From Gemmatimonadales bacterium (lineage in GTDB: Bacteria > Gemmatimonadota > Gemmatimonadetes > Gemmatimonadales > GWC2-71-9), in assembly GCA_019637315.1 (NCBI GenBank), contig JAHBVU010000002.1:300001-358109 (forward strand): DNA of 58,109 nt, in the 5' to 3' direction. Made by a program: the position numbers and the translations under genes. This document shows positions 2,729 through 19,770 of this stretch, piece after piece; within the stretch, counting starts at the first letter, position 1, and each line of letters begins with the position of its first letter. The notes under the pieces are model-generated. The model was not told the origin of the DNA. It saw only the letters and a list, made by a program, of their open reading frames with translations, and ran no database searches.

Positions 2729-2964
2729 TGCTACGCTCCACCGGGGTTCTGCTGGTGCTCGGAATCGCGGCAGTTTCGGATCGCCCGGCTGGCCTGCTAA
2801 CCGCCGGGATGCGTCTGACCTGCGAAAGCGGTCGGCAGACGACGGTCTGCACCGTTGATTCGGTCCGACTGGGCGAGGACTCCAACTGCAGACGATCAAC
2901 TGAACCTCAGCGTCGATCGGCCTGCGCACCGGCGGCAAGATCGAACCGAGGGATTGGCGCCTGA
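2728..2964 (+). CDS. possible small secreted protein, coupled to the YCII gene
   Basis: An ATG at 2728 overlaps the TGA stop of the YCII gene in a TGATG arrangement typical of coupled translation. The frame encodes 78 residues: a hydrophobic N-terminus (STGVLLVLGIAAVS) resembling a short signal peptide, then a polar part with four cysteines. The last 58 bases overlap the 3' end of apaG on the other strand, which counts against the full length being real. I recognise no family. It may be a genuine third member of the sigma locus or a chance frame in GC-rich DNA. Confidence 0.35.
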   Translation: MLRSTGVLLVLGIAAVSDRPAGLLTAGMRLTCESGRQTTVCTVDSVRLGEDSNCRRSTEPQRRSACAPAARSNRGIGA

Positions 2965-3311
2965 AAGGTGGACTCGTCCTCCCGCTGGAACTCATAGTGC
3001 CCCTCCATATAGCCGGAGGGGCTTTTGAGAATGCAGTAGCTTTGATACGTGTGAACCGCACCTGGCGCAATCCAAGGCTGCTCCCCGATCACACCATCGC
3101 CGCGCACCTCGTGGTCTTCACCGCCCCCCACCGAATCGTGAATCCGCCAGAACCGGCTCAGCAGCTGCGCGGGGACCGTACCGACGTTCTCGATCCTGAC
3201 CGTATAGGCAAAGACGAAGTGCCCGAGCGTCGGACGAGACTGTCCGCGCAGGTAAGCGGGACGGACGGAAATCCGGATTCCGTCCGTCATGCGATAGTAG
3301 AACGGAGCCAT
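2907..3311 (-). CDS. apaG: ApaG family protein
   Basis: This 134-residue protein matches ApaG along its whole length: ISVRPAYLRGQS near the start, FAYTVRIENVG, the WRIHDSVGG segment, then EVRGDGVIGEQPWIAPG and the terminal GHYEF. ApaG is a fibronectin type III-like fold whose loss in enteric bacteria affects cobalt resistance and magnesium efflux; its molecular function is not firmly known. It starts 6 bases after the stop of the propeller gene, so it may be the last gene of the hppD-hmgA-propeller run. A second ATG at 3290 (MTDGIRISV) is an equally good start. Confidence 0.93.
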   Translation of the reverse strand: MAPFYYRMTDGIRISVRPAYLRGQSRPTLGHFVFAYTVRIENVGTVPAQLLSRFWRIHDSVGGGEDHEVRGDGVIGEQPWIAPGAVHTYQSYCILKSPSGYMEGHYEFQREDESTFQAPIPRFDLAAGAQADRR

Positions 3312-11839: not shown

Positions 11840-12502
11840 TCAGGCCCCGCCCACGGGCAGACAGTGCACCCGCCCCGGGCCATGGACCCCCACCAGCAGC
11901 TGTCCCTCGATGTCGGCGGTGCGGCTGGGGCCGGTCACCAGTACGGCTGCGCTGGCCTGTCGACTGCCGAGCGCACTTGCGGCCTGCCGGATGAAGTCGC
12001 CCAAGGTGGCCACAACCCGCGCCGGATCGAGGACGGTCAGGTGCGCCGGGGCAATCACACTCGACAGCCGCCCCTGCCCCGGACTCGGAATCAGCGCAAA
12101 AGTACCCGACTCGGCAATCGCCGCGGTGGTTGCGGTAATCGAAAGCCCCAAGCGATCGGCGTGTTCAGGCCCCTCGAAGCCGCGCACCACCTCCACCCCA
12201 GCCGCCACCAGCGTATCCGCAACGCCGAGCCGATCGAGCAGTCCGTCGGGATCGCGCGCCACCCAGACGGCTCCCGCATACTGCCGAGCAATTGCGACCA
12301 GCTGCGCATCGACAGCGGCACGGTCGCCCGCCGGGTGCCACTGGCCGCCCAGCCCCTCGAACCGCTCGCGAAACTGCGCCAGCAGCGATGACCATGACCC
12401 GGGTGCTGCCACCGGCCAGGCCGGGTGCGGGTGATGGTGCGGTGGCGGCATGACTCGAAGGAGTGCCGCACGAACGTCGGCCAGAATCCGATCGCGGCTC
12501 AT
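11840..12502 (-). CDS. lutC: LutC/YkgG-type LUD domain protein
   Basis: The product is 220 residues from the ATG at 12502, which is preceded by a GAGGG ribosome binding site; longer frames would lie inside lutB. The LUD (YkgG) fold is recognisable from ITATTAAIAESGTFAL and the C-terminal VLVTGPSRTADIEGQLLVGVHGP with the conserved GPSxTADIE motif. LutC is the third subunit of the iron-sulfur L-lactate oxidising complex that converts L-lactate to pyruvate. The start overlaps the end of lutB by 4 bases, supporting coupled synthesis. The tRNA-Arg gene follows 36 bases downstream. Confidence 0.93.
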   Translation of the reverse strand: MSRDRILADVRAALLRVMPPPHHHPHPAWPVAAPGSWSSLLAQFRERFEGLGGQWHPAGDRAAVDAQLVAIARQYAGAVWVARDPDGLLDRLGVADTLVAAGVEVVRGFEGPEHADRLGLSITATTAAIAESGTFALIPSPGQGRLSSVIAPAHLTVLDPARVVATLGDFIRQAASALGSRQASAAVLVTGPSRTADIEGQLLVGVHGPGRVHCLPVGGA

Positions 12503-13896
12503 CGATCCCTCACCAGATCGCGAAGCGGACGGGCCGCCAGCTGTGGAACCGAGCGCCATCGCGCCCAGCCGGCAGCAGGTCCCGGCGCCAGCCACTGGCC
12601 TCCTCCGGCAGCACGCTGCAGCCAATACGCCATCCGGCCGGCCAGGCGAAACCGGACCGGCGAGGCCATGATCCAGGCCGCCAGCCGAAGCGGCCAGCGC
12701 CCGACGGTCCCGGGTTCGGGCGGCAGCGCAGCCGCTTCCTTCCGGAAGTGAAGTAGCATCCTCGGGATGTCGATCTTGATCGGGCAGGCGTCCCGACAGG
12801 CGCCGCAGAGCGACGACGCAAAGGGCAGTTCCTTGGCCGCCTCCACGCCGAGCAATCCGGGCGTGACGACAGCACCGATCGGTCCCTGGTAGACCCACCC
12901 GTAGGCGTGCCCGCCCGCGCGGCGATAGACCGGACAGACGCCAAGACAGGCTGCGCAGCGAATGCACAGCAGCGACTCCCGCGCCTCCGGATCTGCCAGC
13001 AAGCGTGAGCGGCCATTGTCCAGCAGCACGACGTGGAACTCTTCCGGACCGTCGGTCTCGCCGGGTCGGCGCATCCCATTCAGAATACTGACGTAACTCG
13101 ACAGGCGCTGACCGGTCGCACTCCTCGGCAGCACGCTGAGCAGCGGGTCCAGATCCGCGAAGCGCGGCACGATCTTGTCGATGCCGATCACGGCCACGTG
13201 CACCGACGGCAGTGAGGTCGACAGCCTAGCATTGCCCTCGTTCTCCACCACCACGATCGACCCCGTCTCGGCCACAGCAAAGTTGGCGCCGGTGATGCCC
13301 ATCGAGGCGGTCAGGAATCGCTTGCGCAAGGTTCGGCGGGCGATGGCGGTCAGTTCGCCAGGCTCGGTCGTCAGCGGCACGTCCAGCGTTCGGGCAAAGA
13401 GATCGCCGACTCGCTCCTTGGTCCAATGGATTGCCGGCGCCAGAAAGTGCGACGGCGTGTCGTGGGCCAGTTGGATGATGTACTCACCCAGATCGGTTTC
13501 GACCGGGGTGACACCCGCTGCTTCGAGTGCCTGATTGAGACCGATCTCTTCGGTCGCCATCGACTTGCTCTTGACCGCAATCGTGACGCCGCGACGCCGG
13601 GCGATGGCCGTGACGTGCTGGCACGCCTCCTCCGCCGTGCGGGCCCACCAGACCGTGCCGCCGTTGGCCTGGACGCTCGCTTCGAACTGGGTCAGGTAAC
13701 GATCGAGGTTGCTGATGGCTTCGAGGCGTGCCGCGCGGGCGCGAGCACGGAGCGATTCCCAATCGGGCCGCTCGGCCACCGCCGCAAGCCGGAGGTCGAC
13801 GAACCGGGAGGTGGTGCGATGCAATGCACCCTGAAGCTGGACCAGGTCGAGCGCGCGATCAGCCTGCTCATGGAACCGCTCGGCGGCAGGCTTCAT
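12499..13896 (-). CDS. lutB: LutB-type iron-sulfur lactate utilisation protein
   Basis: This 465-residue subunit has an N-terminal LUD domain (VAVKSKSMATEEIGLN-type motif and ANFAVAETGSIVVVENEGN) and a C-terminal ferredoxin-like segment. The first cluster motif is CIRCAACLGVCP with cysteines 311, 314, 317 and 321. The second is CGACRDACPIKI with cysteines 364, 367 and 371. A tail of about 85 residues follows. It should transfer electrons from lactate oxidation toward the quinone pool. It overlaps both lutA (13893-13896) and lutC (12499-12502) by 4 bases. Confidence 0.95.
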   Translation of the reverse strand: MKPAAERFHEQADRALDLVQLQGALHRTTSRFVDLRLAAVAERPDWESLRARARAARLEAISNLDRYLTQFEASVQANGGTVWWARTAEEACQHVTAIARRRGVTIAVKSKSMATEEIGLNQALEAAGVTPVETDLGEYIIQLAHDTPSHFLAPAIHWTKERVGDLFARTLDVPLTTEPGELTAIARRTLRKRFLTASMGITGANFAVAETGSIVVVENEGNARLSTSLPSVHVAVIGIDKIVPRFADLDPLLSVLPRSATGQRLSSYVSILNGMRRPGETDGPEEFHVVLLDNGRSRLLADPEARESLLCIRCAACLGVCPVYRRAGGHAYGWVYQGPIGAVVTPGLLGVEAAKELPFASSLCGACRDACPIKIDIPRMLLHFRKEAAALPPEPGTVGRWPLRLAAWIMASPVRFRLAGRMAYWLQRAAGGGQWLAPGPAAGWARWRSVPQLAARPLRDLVRDR

Positions 13897-14624
13897 GGCG
13901 CGCCCGGATCAGCGGCGAGCACCTGGGCGAGATGAAGCACTTCGACGTCCAGGCCGCGCCGATCGAGAATGCCCTTGATCTGGAGCAGGCAGGATGGATC
14001 GCAGGACACCACAGCCTCCGCCCCGGTGGCCGCGATGGCGTCGACTTTCGCGTTGCCCATGCTGGCCGAGATCCTGTCGAAGGACACCGAGAAGCTGCCG
14101 CCGAAACCGCAGCACGCCTGCCGATCGTCCAGCTCGACGAGCTCACATCCCTCCACCTTGCGGAGCAAGCGCCGAGGCTGATCTCGCACACCGAGTTCCC
14201 GGAGCGAGTGACACCCGTCGTGCATCGTGACGCGGGCGGCGCAGGCGGACGTGAGCTCTGCCGCTCGCGGCTGCTGACTGACGAACTCGCTGAATTCGAA
14301 CGTCTTGGCCGCCACGGATCGGGCGGCATCGTGACTCGGGTCTCCGGCGGGGAGCAGGTCGGCGTAGTGAACCCGGATCATGGCTGCGCATGATCCAGAC
14401 GGCACGACGACGGCGTCGAAATCATCGAGTATCTTTACGGTCGCGCGGGCGAGCTTGGCCGCTTCACCACGATGCCCCGCATTATAGAACGGCTGCCCGC
14501 AGCAGGTCTGGGCCGCGGGAAACTCGGCCGAGCACCCGATCCGGTCGAGCACGGTGAGCGCTGCCAGGCCAATGTCGGGCAGTACCTGATCGACCACACA
14601 GGTGGCAAAGAGCGCGATGCGCAT
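13893..14624 (-). CDS. lutA: LutA-type (Fe-S)-binding CCG-domain protein
   Basis: This 243-residue protein carries two cysteine-rich CCG domains. The first contains AQTCCGQPFYNAGH and the second MHDGCHSLRELG followed by ACCGFGGSFSV; these motifs bind iron-sulfur clusters in LutA, GlpC and HdrB relatives. The ATG at 14624 heads the lutABC operon, read divergently from the DUF218 gene at 14690. The 65-base gap between them must hold promoters for both directions, but I see no clear elements. No lactate permease or LutR-type regulator is adjacent. Confidence 0.95.
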   Translation of the reverse strand: MRIALFATCVVDQVLPDIGLAALTVLDRIGCSAEFPAAQTCCGQPFYNAGHRGEAAKLARATVKILDDFDAVVVPSGSCAAMIRVHYADLLPAGDPSHDAARSVAAKTFEFSEFVSQQPRAAELTSACAARVTMHDGCHSLRELGVRDQPRRLLRKVEGCELVELDDRQACCGFGGSFSVSFDRISASMGNAKVDAIAATGAEAVVSCDPSCLLQIKGILDRRGLDVEVLHLAQVLAADPGAP

Positions 14625-16654: not shown

Positions 16655-16832
16655 CGACTTCCGTCAGCGGGCGGTCGCCTTGGTCTTCAGACCGGGTTCA
16701 GCATTCCTTCATCCGGTGCCGCCCATCTTGGAGTGTGCCAGTCGCGGGTAAGCATCCGACTTGTAATGGTCGGCTGCCGATCCCGGGCGGAAGCCATTGA
16801 CAATCCGGCGCCCCTCGAACTTGGGAGTGACT

Positions 16833-17702
16833 ATGCGCATCGTGTGCGGAACGGACTTCTCAGCCCCGGGGCAGCAAGCTGCAACGGTGGCCGGCCTCCT
16901 CGCCCGTCAGACGGGAGGCGAGCTCCATCTGATTCATGGTCTCGGGCCCCGCCGACGCTGGGACTTTACTGCCGAACGGACCGAGCTCGAGAAAGAGGGC
17001 CGCCGACTTCAGGAGCAGGGTGTCGCTGTTACCGGCATCAATGCGGTGTGGGGCGACCCAAACGTTGTCATGATCGAGGAAGCCACCCGATGGGGTGCCG
17101 AGCTCATCGTGCTCGGCGCAACCGGGCAACGGCTGGCGGACTTGACGCTGCTCGGCAGCGTCGCCTCCAGGACAGCACGGGAATCGCCGGTACCCGTTCT
17201 GGTCGTTCGAGACGCTGCGCCGTTCGTCGCGTGGCTCGAGAAGAGCGCTCCCCTTCGAGTTCTCACCGGCTTCGAACGAGGGGAGAGTACCAATCATGCC
17301 CTTCGCTGGGCGGCGAGTCTCAGGCGTCTCGGCACCGTCAACCTGACTGTTGCGCAGCTGGTGACCCCGGGATTGGAGAATCGCCGAGCCGAGGCGTCGG
17401 GCCCCGGAACCGGCATCGAACTCCACCCCAGTACCCGCAGTCAGCTGCTGGAAGAGCTCCGTCTGGCTACGGCGCCGGCAATCGGCGACATCTCGGCCAC
17501 TCTGACCGTCAAGCCGGCGATCGGCCGCACCGACATACACCTGGTGCAGGAAGCCGAGGGCATGCACGCCGACCTGGTGGTGGTCGGCAGCCACCAGCGC
17601 AAGGGGTTTCAACGCTGGTGGCACGGTTCGGTGTCGAGTGGCGTGGTGCATGGGGCGCCGATGAGCGTCGCGGTGGTTCCCTACCGCCCGTCGGAGAGCT
17701 GA
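16833..17702 (+). CDS. tandem universal stress protein (two UspA domains)
   Basis: The ATG at 16833 has a GGGAGTGA ribosome binding site and gives 289 residues; an in-frame start 36 bases upstream adds residues with no family likeness. The first UspA domain (MRIVCGTDFSAPGQQA to PVLVVRD) has GATG followed by LLGSVAS. The second ends with a full nucleotide-binding pattern, VVVGSHQRKGF then HGSVSSGVVHG. Tandem USPs bind ATP or other adenine nucleotides and act in stress or redox adaptation. The next gene, a flavocytochrome, begins 4 bases later, so this protein is probably cotranscribed with the redox module that follows. Confidence 0.93.
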   Translation: MRIVCGTDFSAPGQQAATVAGLLARQTGGELHLIHGLGPRRRWDFTAERTELEKEGRRLQEQGVAVTGINAVWGDPNVVMIEEATRWGAELIVLGATGQRLADLTLLGSVASRTARESPVPVLVVRDAAPFVAWLEKSAPLRVLTGFERGESTNHALRWAASLRRLGTVNLTVAQLVTPGLENRRAEASGPGTGIELHPSTRSQLLEELRLATAPAIGDISATLTVKPAIGRTDIHLVQEAEGMHADLVVVGSHQRKGFQRWWHGSVSSGVVHGAPMSVAVVPYRPSES

Positions 17703-17706
17703 AGCG

Positions 17707-19053
17707 ATGCAGTCCCGTTGGCGGCGTGTGCGTGAAACGCCCGCTGCCACGGGTGTTCTCTGGATCGCTCTTTACGTTGCCCTGGTGGTGACACCGCTGC
17801 TCGTACTCTTCATCGACCCGACCTCGCCTGGGGGTGGCGTCGTCTGGGACGTGGGGATTGCACTGGGCTTCGGGGGCCTGGCAATGCTCGGCGTGCAGTT
17901 CTTTCTGACTGCCCGGTTCCGGCGCGCCACCGCCCCATATGGCATCGATCTCATCTACTACTTCCACCGGTACCTCGGCATCGTTGCCCTGATCGTTCTG
18001 GTAGCGCATCCGGCGCTGCTCTGGATATCGAACCCAGCTGTCGCGGCGCTCTTCAACCCAATGACGGCGCCGTGGCACATCACCGCCGGTACGCTTTCGC
18101 TCGCTGCGGTGGCTGGCCTGGCAGTGTCTTCCCTGCTGCGCCGGCAGCTCGGTCTCGAGTATGACCTCTGGCGGGTGGGACACACGATCCTCGCCATTGT
18201 CGCGGTCGGTCTGGCCCTATGGCATGTGCACGGCGTGGGTTACTACGTGGCAAGCCCCTGGGCGAGGGCGCTATGGCTGGTCATCGGGGCATCGCTGATT
18301 GCCGTAGTGGCGTGGATCCGCTTGGTCAGGCCGTGGTTGCTGCGGAGAAAGCCATACCGGGTCATCTCGGTCGTTCCGGAACGCGGTGACGCCTGGACGC
18401 TGGCCCTGGAGCCGGTCAATCACAACGGGGTGCGTTTCCAGCCGGGCCAGTTTGCCTGGCTCACGCTGAGACACAGTCCGTTTGCAATGAAAGAGCATCC
18501 GTTCTCGTTTTCGTCGAGCCCCGATCGCGACGGCCGACGAATCGAGTTTACGATCAAGGAGCTGGGGGACTTCAGTCGCACGATCAAGAGCGTTCTTCCC
18601 GGAGAGATCGGGTATGTCGATGGGCCCTATGGCGCCTTCACGATCGATCGTCACCCGGCAACGTACTACGTGTTCATCGCGGGAGGTATCGGGATCGCAC
18701 CGATCATGAGCATGCTGCGGGGGCTGGCAGATCGCGCCTACCCGCACCCCGTGCTATTGCTGTACGCCTACAGCAGGTGGGACCGGATGACGTTTCGGGA
18801 GTCACTCGACGAGCTGACGACTCGTCTGTCGCTCACCGTCGTACCAGTGCTCGACGAGCCACCCGAAGGATGGTCGGGCGAGCACGGCTGGATCACCCGG
18901 GAGATTCTGGAACGGCATCTGCCCCGCGACCGCGGTCAGCCGCACTACTTCATCTGCGGGCCGGAGGCGATGACCCAGGCGATGGAACGACTGCTGAAAT
19001 CGGTGGGCGTTCCACTCCGACGGATACATTCGGAGCTCTTTAACTTGGTCTGA
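17707..19053 (+). CDS. NOX/ferric-reductase-like transmembrane flavocytochrome b
   Basis: This 448-residue protein has a six-helix ferric-reductase-type membrane domain (residues about 15-210) and a cytoplasmic FAD/NAD(P)H module. Two histidine pairs are spaced as in NADPH oxidases: His87/His101 in one helix and His159/His173 in another, suited to hold two stacked hemes b. The FAD-binding motif is HPFSFSS (264-270), the nucleotide motifs are AGGIGIAP and ICGPEAM, and the chain ends ELFNLV with a near-terminal aromatic as in NOX enzymes. It should pass electrons from cytoplasmic NAD(P)H across the membrane. The acceptor could be oxygen, ferric iron or the c-type cytochrome encoded downstream. 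Domain calls are firm; the acceptor is inference. Confidence 0.9.
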   Translation: MQSRWRRVRETPAATGVLWIALYVALVVTPLLVLFIDPTSPGGGVVWDVGIALGFGGLAMLGVQFFLTARFRRATAPYGIDLIYYFHRYLGIVALIVLVAHPALLWISNPAVAALFNPMTAPWHITAGTLSLAAVAGLAVSSLLRRQLGLEYDLWRVGHTILAIVAVGLALWHVHGVGYYVASPWARALWLVIGASLIAVVAWIRLVRPWLLRRKPYRVISVVPERGDAWTLALEPVNHNGVRFQPGQFAWLTLRHSPFAMKEHPFSFSSSPDRDGRRIEFTIKELGDFSRTIKSVLPGEIGYVDGPYGAFTIDRHPATYYVFIAGGIGIAPIMSMLRGLADRAYPHPVLLLYAYSRWDRMTFRESLDELTTRLSLTVVPVLDEPPEGWSGEHGWITREILERHLPRDRGQPHYFICGPEAMTQAMERLLKSVGVPLRRIHSELFNLV

Positions 19054-19098
19054 GCTCCAAGCCGAGACGGCTAGGCCGGGATGCCGAGGGAGGTGGCC

Positions 19099-19191
19099 AT
19101 GCGTTGCACACTGGCGAAACTGCTGGCGGTCGGAACCGGACTTGTGGTCGTCTTGCTGGCGATACTCTTTGCCGCTCTGCAGAGGGGGTAA
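19099..19191 (+). CDS. 30-residue single-pass membrane peptide
   Basis: An ATG at 19099 directly follows a strong ribosome binding site (GGGAGGTGG at about 19088-19096). The frame encodes 30 residues: a short positive start (MRCTLAKLL), a continuous hydrophobic core of about 18 residues rich in Val, Leu and Ala, and a short ALQRG tail before TAA. This is the shape of a single transmembrane helix. It lies 45 bases after the flavocytochrome stop and 2 bases before the cytochrome c start. Small peptides of this type are often accessory subunits of membrane redox complexes. I know no named family; existence is supported by the signal, spacing and composition only. Confidence 0.7.
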   Translation: MRCTLAKLLAVGTGLVVVLLAILFAALQRG

Positions 19192-19193
19192 CT

Positions 19194-19568
19194 ATGGTAC
19201 CGCGATCAAGAGTAGCGCTGATCCGCATCTTCGCCGGAGCCGTGGCGTCGTTCCTCGCCGCTGCTTCGCTTTCGGCACAGCAGGTGGCCCAAGACTCCGC
19301 TGCGCAAGTTGCCCGGGGCAAACGCGTGTACCACGAGCAGCGATGTCGGGTCTGCCACGCGATCGCGGGAGAGGGGAACCGGCGGTACCCCCTCGACGGG
19401 GTTGGGTCGCGCCTGTCCGCCGATACGATCCGACTGTGGATTGTGGCGCCTCGCGAGGTCAACCCCAAGGTGCGCAAGCGAGCTTACGACCAGCTGTCGG
19501 CCGATGACCTCCAGGCGCTCGTAGCATTTCTTCGGGGTCTGAGGGAACCGCGGGCCCCGGGCAGTTAA
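19194..19568 (+). CDS. exported mono-heme c-type cytochrome lacking the usual axial methionine
   Basis: The ATG at 19194 starts a 124-residue protein with a signal peptide (ALIRIFAGAVASFLAAASLSAQQ) and one heme-binding motif CRVCH at residues 51-55. The fold resembles class I cytochrome c, with the C-terminal helix SADDLQALVAFLRGL. Where a class I cytochrome normally has the sixth-ligand methionine the sequence reads NPKVRKRAYDQL, and no methionine occurs anywhere after residue 1. The second axial ligand must be another residue or open. It is 2 bases downstream of the membrane peptide, so the two are probably cotranscribed with the flavocytochrome and may receive its electrons in the periplasm. 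Confidence 0.88.
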   Translation: MVPRSRVALIRIFAGAVASFLAAASLSAQQVAQDSAAQVARGKRVYHEQRCRVCHAIAGEGNRRYPLDGVGSRLSADTIRLWIVAPREVNPKVRKRAYDQLSADDLQALVAFLRGLREPRAPGS

Positions 19569-19676
19569 GCCCAGCCTGCCATCAGGCCGCGACCGGTTCG
19601 GCGTTGCGACGCCGGAGGCCAAGAGCTCCGCGTCCCGAAAGCAAAGCGAGCGGCCTCACGGCCGCTCGCTCTACAA

Positions 19677-19750
19677 TCGGGGCGCCGGGATTCGAACCCG
19701 GGACCTCCTGCGCCCAAGGCAGGCGCGCTACCGGGCTGCGCTACGCCCCG
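19677..19750 (-). tRNA. tRNA-Pro (anticodon TGG)
   Basis: On the minus strand a complete 74-nt cloverleaf is seen. The acceptor stem CGGGGCG pairs with CGCCCCG, the anticodon stem-loop is CCTGC-CTTGGGC-GCAGG with anticodon TGG, and the T-arm reads CCGGG-TTCGAAT-CCCGG; the discriminator base is A and CCA is not encoded. It sits between the cytochrome c gene and the TetR gene. Confidence 0.97.
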
Positions 19751-19770
19751 ATTTCGTCCAGCCTGATAAT

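Follow-up and report, generated by a model that had tools for sequence, protein, structure and literature searches.

A bacterial NOX-type flavocytochrome accompanied by a recurrent single-helix protein that may link it to c-type cytochromes

The window, a 58,109-nucleotide stretch of the genome of a Gemmatimonadales bacterium, encodes a NOX-type flavocytochrome b followed by a 30-residue single-helix protein. Such helix ORFs recur beside the flavocytochrome in several bacterial phyla, either standing alone or fused to a c-type cytochrome. We propose, with a probability of about 0.6, that these proteins carry out NAD(P)H-driven transmembrane electron transfer to an exchangeable c-type acceptor, with the helix as a small accessory or docking element. 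In its support we count the NOX criteria and the SpNOX fold, helix recurrence, codon constraint, repeated switching between bare and fused helices, the gene neighborhoods, and the direct, oxygen-free reduction of cytochrome c by SpNOX (PMC11564096).

The locus and its flavocytochrome

Four ORFs lie on the plus strand in the order given in the preliminary description: a gene for a tandem-domain universal stress protein (USP; 289 aa, 16833..17702), the flavocytochrome gene (448 aa, 17707..19053), the single-helix ORF (30 aa, MRCTLAKLLAVGTGLVVVLLAILFAALQRG, 19099..19191), and a gene for a mono-heme cytochrome c with its own signal peptide (124 aa, 19194..19568). The coordinates and the intergenic gaps of 4, 45, and 2 nt were confirmed, and Pfam recognizes two Usp stretches in the first protein, in agreement with its description as a tandem USP. 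An SD-like GGGAGGTGG is found upstream of the 30-aa ORF. A search of the plus strand of the four-gene unit for consensus promoters or terminators found none; no FNR-type box is present upstream of the USP gene, and the window-wide total of such boxes is not above chance.

The flavocytochrome contains the Pfam domains Ferric_reduct, FAD_binding_8, and NAD_binding_1, the last two accounting for the FAD/NAD(P)H module ascribed to it earlier. The bis-heme histidine spacing noted at the same time extends to relatives: in an alignment of 48 orthologues, His87, His159, and His173 are kept in all 48 and His101 in 47, and His264 of the HPF motif, the GGxG and CGP motifs, and a C-terminal aromatic residue are kept as well. 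The histidines form two b-heme sites, an inner one (H87/H159) and an outer one (H101/H173). The AlphaFold2 model (pLDDT 92) has six TM helices with the heme histidines on helices 3 and 5, H87-X13-H101 falling in model helix 80–108 and H159-X13-H173 in model helix 152–177, and its best full-length structural match is SpNOX (8qta; Z 36.4, rmsd 2.6 Å over 390 residues, 20% identity). The published definition of bacterial NOX proteins (PMC5676040) asks for a His-X12/14-His motif in each of TM helices 3 and 5 and for a six-helix membrane part that precedes FAD and NADPH domains, and both features are present here. By these published sequence criteria the flavocytochrome is a bacterial NOX-type protein, related to the enzyme that makes superoxide in human white blood cells; NADPH-dependent superoxide production, the third trait by which the family is defined, is putative for it. 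It shares with SpNOX the order of domains, the six TM helices, the bis-histidine pairs, and the FAD and NAD(P)H domains. It differs from SpNOX in sequence (about 20% identity) and in company: SpNOX reportedly works without a p22phox-like subunit (PMC5676040, PMC11564096), whereas the window-type enzyme is accompanied by a helix gene and often by a c-type cytochrome.

A different assignment would make the enzyme a superoxide-producing NADPH oxidase in vivo, with the neighboring cytochrome either incidental or a protective scavenger. The window enzyme has the sequence features of the bacterial NOX proteins. SpNOX itself generates superoxide in vitro (PMC5676040, PMC11564096). However, SpNOX can also pass electrons directly to cytochrome c in the absence of oxygen. 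Its authors regard cytochrome c as the main direct acceptor in vitro, question whether oxygen is the natural one, and leave open the possibility of a protein acceptor (PMC11564096). That the helix has repeatedly been fused to c-type cytochromes, and that c-type or oxidase genes are neighbors, as described below, also speaks against superoxide as the physiological product, and we consider this assignment unlikely.

The 30-residue helix

The 30-aa ORF matches no Pfam family. Relatives of the locus were sought in 395 genomes of its own phylum and in 1146 genomes belonging to the phyla or orders in which the other loci occur. By a strict test (an ATG within 90 nt, 25–40 aa or CxxCH-fused, strongly hydrophobic, with orthologue genes at least 37% identical), a helix ORF follows 32 of 46 orthologue genes, compared with none in 100 dinucleotide shuffles per locus and none at the other long-ORF ends of the control loci. 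By a looser test, 39 of 46 relatives have one, against a background of 4 in about 516 for the ends of other long ORFs and 12 in 4600 for mononucleotide shuffles. A few orthologues (L034 and L056) have no recognizable helix. Because recurrence after flavocytochromes far exceeds both the shuffle and the other-ORF-end controls, the 30-aa ORF is beyond chance, and the comparison supports the view that the helix belongs to the flavocytochrome.

In one clade the helix ORFs diverge by 0.28, 0.25, and 0.51 at codon positions 1, 2, and 3, and in a second clade by 0.38, 0.19, and 0.62, which is the pattern of a protein under selection. Helix identity tracks flavocytochrome identity in near pairs. In the alignment, positive charge at the N-terminus and an FA pair close to the helix end recur among both fused and standalone helices, and the window protein matches the N-terminal anchor of the fused relatives' cytochrome in place and character; permuted helices have a mean identity of 26% with a 99th percentile of 50%, so 30 hydrophobic residues cannot prove common homology. 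In a more distant NOX-type clade (L049, L062, and L063), short helix ORFs also occur, beginning right at the 3′ end of the flavocytochrome gene or overlapping it; they are possible homologues of the main helix.

Membrane proteins of about 30–40 residues encoded with a heme enzyme are represented by CydX and CcoM. The latter has been described as a small oxidase subunit (PMC10433244). The window protein is likewise a small single-helix membrane protein encoded with a heme enzyme; it differs in that no sequence relation to these proteins is shown, its partner is a NOX-type enzyme, and the helix can bear a cytochrome domain. In the open-access literature we found no description of this helix or of its fusion to a cytochrome.

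Fusion and fission of helix and cytochrome

Many relatives have a standalone helix ORF, mostly without a cytochrome (e.g. L032, L036, L037, L043, L046, L055, and L060), and in 20 other relatives the helix is fused to a CxxCH protein. At L003, L004, and L005, for instance, helix-type sequence forms the N-terminus of the downstream cytochrome c. A view formed after four relatives, that the 30-aa ORF is a mere split-off signal anchor, was rejected as a complete account given bare, cytochrome-free helices in many lineages. Mapping the fused state onto a maximum-likelihood tree of 66 flavocytochromes requires seven changes, of which at least four are forced by well-supported branches. Within a mostly fused clade, the window and L028 each encode the helix on its own and, separately, a cytochrome that carries its own signal peptide. 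On this tree, whose deeper branches in that clade are moderately supported, the fusion was probably split in the window's lineage with the helix retained. L006 (positions 2829–3030, genome G041) holds an intact helix ORF, a stop, and then a frameshifted C-terminal cytochrome remnant, and at L055 the helix is present and the cytochrome gone. The helix has thus been kept with its cytochrome lost or separate in the window, L006, L028, and L055. Because it persists without a cytochrome in several relatives, the helix appears to serve the flavocytochrome itself.

These observations also bear on whether the 30-aa ORF could be a functionless relic of a membrane anchor, left behind when the cytochrome became a separate gene and acquired a signal peptide. 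Such a history would suit the placement of the window in a clade of mostly fused members, and the helix, stop, and cytochrome debris of L006 would fit it as well. It does not suit the standalone helices of many separate lineages, which are mostly cytochrome-free and show codon-position constraint, nor the comparison of the window with L055, in which the helices are 57% identical and the flavocytochromes 59%, though L055 has no cytochrome. A relic is in our judgment quite improbable, and a helix that serves the flavocytochrome is preferred.

The cytochrome and its conserved lysine

The window cytochrome, a secreted mono-heme protein resembling class I, has CRVCH at residues 51–55 and matches Pfam Cytochrom_C. 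Its model (pLDDT 89) matches class I structures, with a best Z of 11.3. The CxxCH motif and cytochrome c fold of class I are both present, and the distal Met ligand of that class is missing, as the mature part of the protein contains no Met. A Lys near the usual distal Met site (K95 in the window) is invariant in 17 of 17 cytochromes of the window type; in a profile alignment K95 coincides with the Met of the caa3 cytochrome domain from Thermus (2yev) and is displaced by one residue from that of 1w2l. A His occupies the K95 region in the smaller alternative cytochromes (L057, L074, L077, and L079). Replacement of a Met ligand by Lys is the basis for expecting a low-potential heme, and we infer such a heme in the window cytochrome with the Lys as a candidate ligand. 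Because many relatives have no cytochrome beside the flavocytochrome, the cytochrome is not an obligatory acceptor.

Gene neighborhoods in relatives

Neighboring genes were identified with named queries, all-ORF clustering of the wide loci being clouded by antisense and frame-shadow ORFs. Six Lysobacterales loci with a fused cytochrome (L005, L096–L099, and L115) adjoin genes for a DmsE-family decaheme cytochrome and an MtrB/PioB porin; at L005, the one locus scanned, both matches are above the NCBIfam cut-offs. It is possible, judging by gene content, that these loci are an NAD(P)H-fed extracellular electron-transfer cluster. The decaheme and outer-membrane porin genes are a likeness to MtrAB/PioAB conduits, in which case a NOX-type feeder would replace the quinol-oxidizing one; the window differs in that MtrB is absent from its own genome. 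Seven loci with a cytochrome-free helix adjoin COX1 and COX2, usually also DUF2231 and CtaG; at two of the seven, L101 and L117, the oxidase cluster includes an ORF for a CxxCH cytochrome close to COX2. The contrast between conduit and oxidase neighborhoods is suggestive, the loci being few and partly related. Two ORFs 3′ of the L047 and L048 flavocytochromes, with provisional frames, gave no family match.

The CtaG and COX genes that adjoin in seven loci, together with the Ferric_reduct domain, raise the question of whether the enzyme is a periplasmic ferric or cupric metal reductase, supplying metal for oxidase assembly, for example; a ferrous transporter gene is also included in some MsrQ-like clusters (PMC8238504). 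However, there is no metal transporter among the window's neighbor genes scanned, ferric reduction by SpNOX is very slow (PMC11564096), and the fused cytochromes would be left unexplained, making metal reduction a very unlikely role compared with electron transfer to a c-type acceptor. MsrQ-like and MsrPQ systems bear a broader resemblance to the window, in that a Ferric_reduct-type membrane protein, often with an NAD-binding domain, feeds an extracytosolic partner (PMC8238504). That partner is an FMN-binding protein, to which MsrQ-like systems pass electrons (PMC8238504), or MsrP, with ApbE, whereas the window-type partner is a c-type cytochrome. Pfam finds no FMN-binding protein or ApbE, the marks of a flavinylation-associated MsrQ-like cluster, among the seven neighboring genes and the four genes of the block.

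The USP gene is adjacent to the flavocytochrome gene only in the window and at L004, and the USP was rejected as a conserved partner. The conserved co-occurrence of USP, flavocytochrome, helix, and cytochrome, for which the preliminary description proposed a search, was not found as a recurring set among the loci compared, the cytochrome being optional and usually helix-fused. Other neighbors include a PEP synthase gene at L003 and L089, a site-2-protease-like gene at L089 (L006/L089), and acetate kinase and USP genes at L004. By gene family, the neighbors at L003, L006/L089, and L004 are of a stress or hypoxia type around some copies.

Origin of the block

Five congeners lack the flavocytochrome, as do nearly all of the family members that were searched. 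One congener (G005) has the same order of DUF218, M55 peptidase, tRNA-Pro, TetR, and beta-lactamase genes with a block of about 3 kb missing (16655..19675 in the window), so that 67–70 nt separate its M55 peptidase gene from tRNA-Pro. Because the four-gene block is missing whole at the same site, its genes were gained or lost together in the window lineage; the scattered distribution favors gain by transfer. The USP thus travels with the block in this lineage though it is no conserved partner elsewhere. The tRNA-Pro gene (tgg; 19676–19751, minus strand) lies directly downstream of the block and is possibly related to insertion. Elsewhere in the window (12499–14624, minus strand), LutB-like (LUD domain, 4Fe-4S) and LutA-like (cysteine-rich CCG) genes are a probable lactate-utilization pair.

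Discussion

We predict that the NOX-type enzyme sits in the inner membrane and transfers hydride from NAD(P)H in the cytosol to FAD, from which single electrons would pass to the inner heme (H87/H159), the outer heme (H101/H173), and the periplasmic side. The helix of about 30 residues may form a complex with the enzyme as an accessory or docking subunit, its N-terminus inside and its C-terminus at the periplasmic face. In fused relatives, the helix runs on into the c-type cytochrome and would tether the electron acceptor to the enzyme. In the window lineage, where the fusion was probably split, the helix would stay as a separate 30-aa protein and the cytochrome would become a secreted carrier that picks up electrons at the outer heme and delivers them to a further sink in the periplasm. 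A heme-copper oxidase is a possible sink because the window genome has COX1 and no MtrB. The preliminary description proposed NAD(P)H-driven electron flow to a dedicated periplasmic carrier with a small helix as accessory; comparison supports the components, and their joint function is still a proposal.

A broader reading, to which we give somewhat less than even odds, is that the helix is a general partner of a large subfamily of bacterial NOX proteins and an exchangeable adaptor, the bare form going with an oxidase sink and the cytochrome-bearing form with crossing of the periplasm, for example through MtrAB. The enzymes would then be NAD(P)H:cytochrome c reductases and not superoxide generators.

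The function and electron acceptor of bacterial NOX-type enzymes were left open in the SpNOX papers (PMC5676040, PMC11564096). The helix and its association with cytochromes suggest a dedicated extramembrane electron partner rather than simply oxygen, and a recurrent helix that has repeatedly turned into a cytochrome anchor offers both a testable acceptor and a candidate subunit. If the broader reading is true, such NOX enzymes would serve respiration or extracellular electron transfer, the NOX fold would join respiratory and extracellular electron-transfer modules, and the helix would be comparable, on the bacterial side, to the small membrane subunits that eukaryotic NOX enzymes have.
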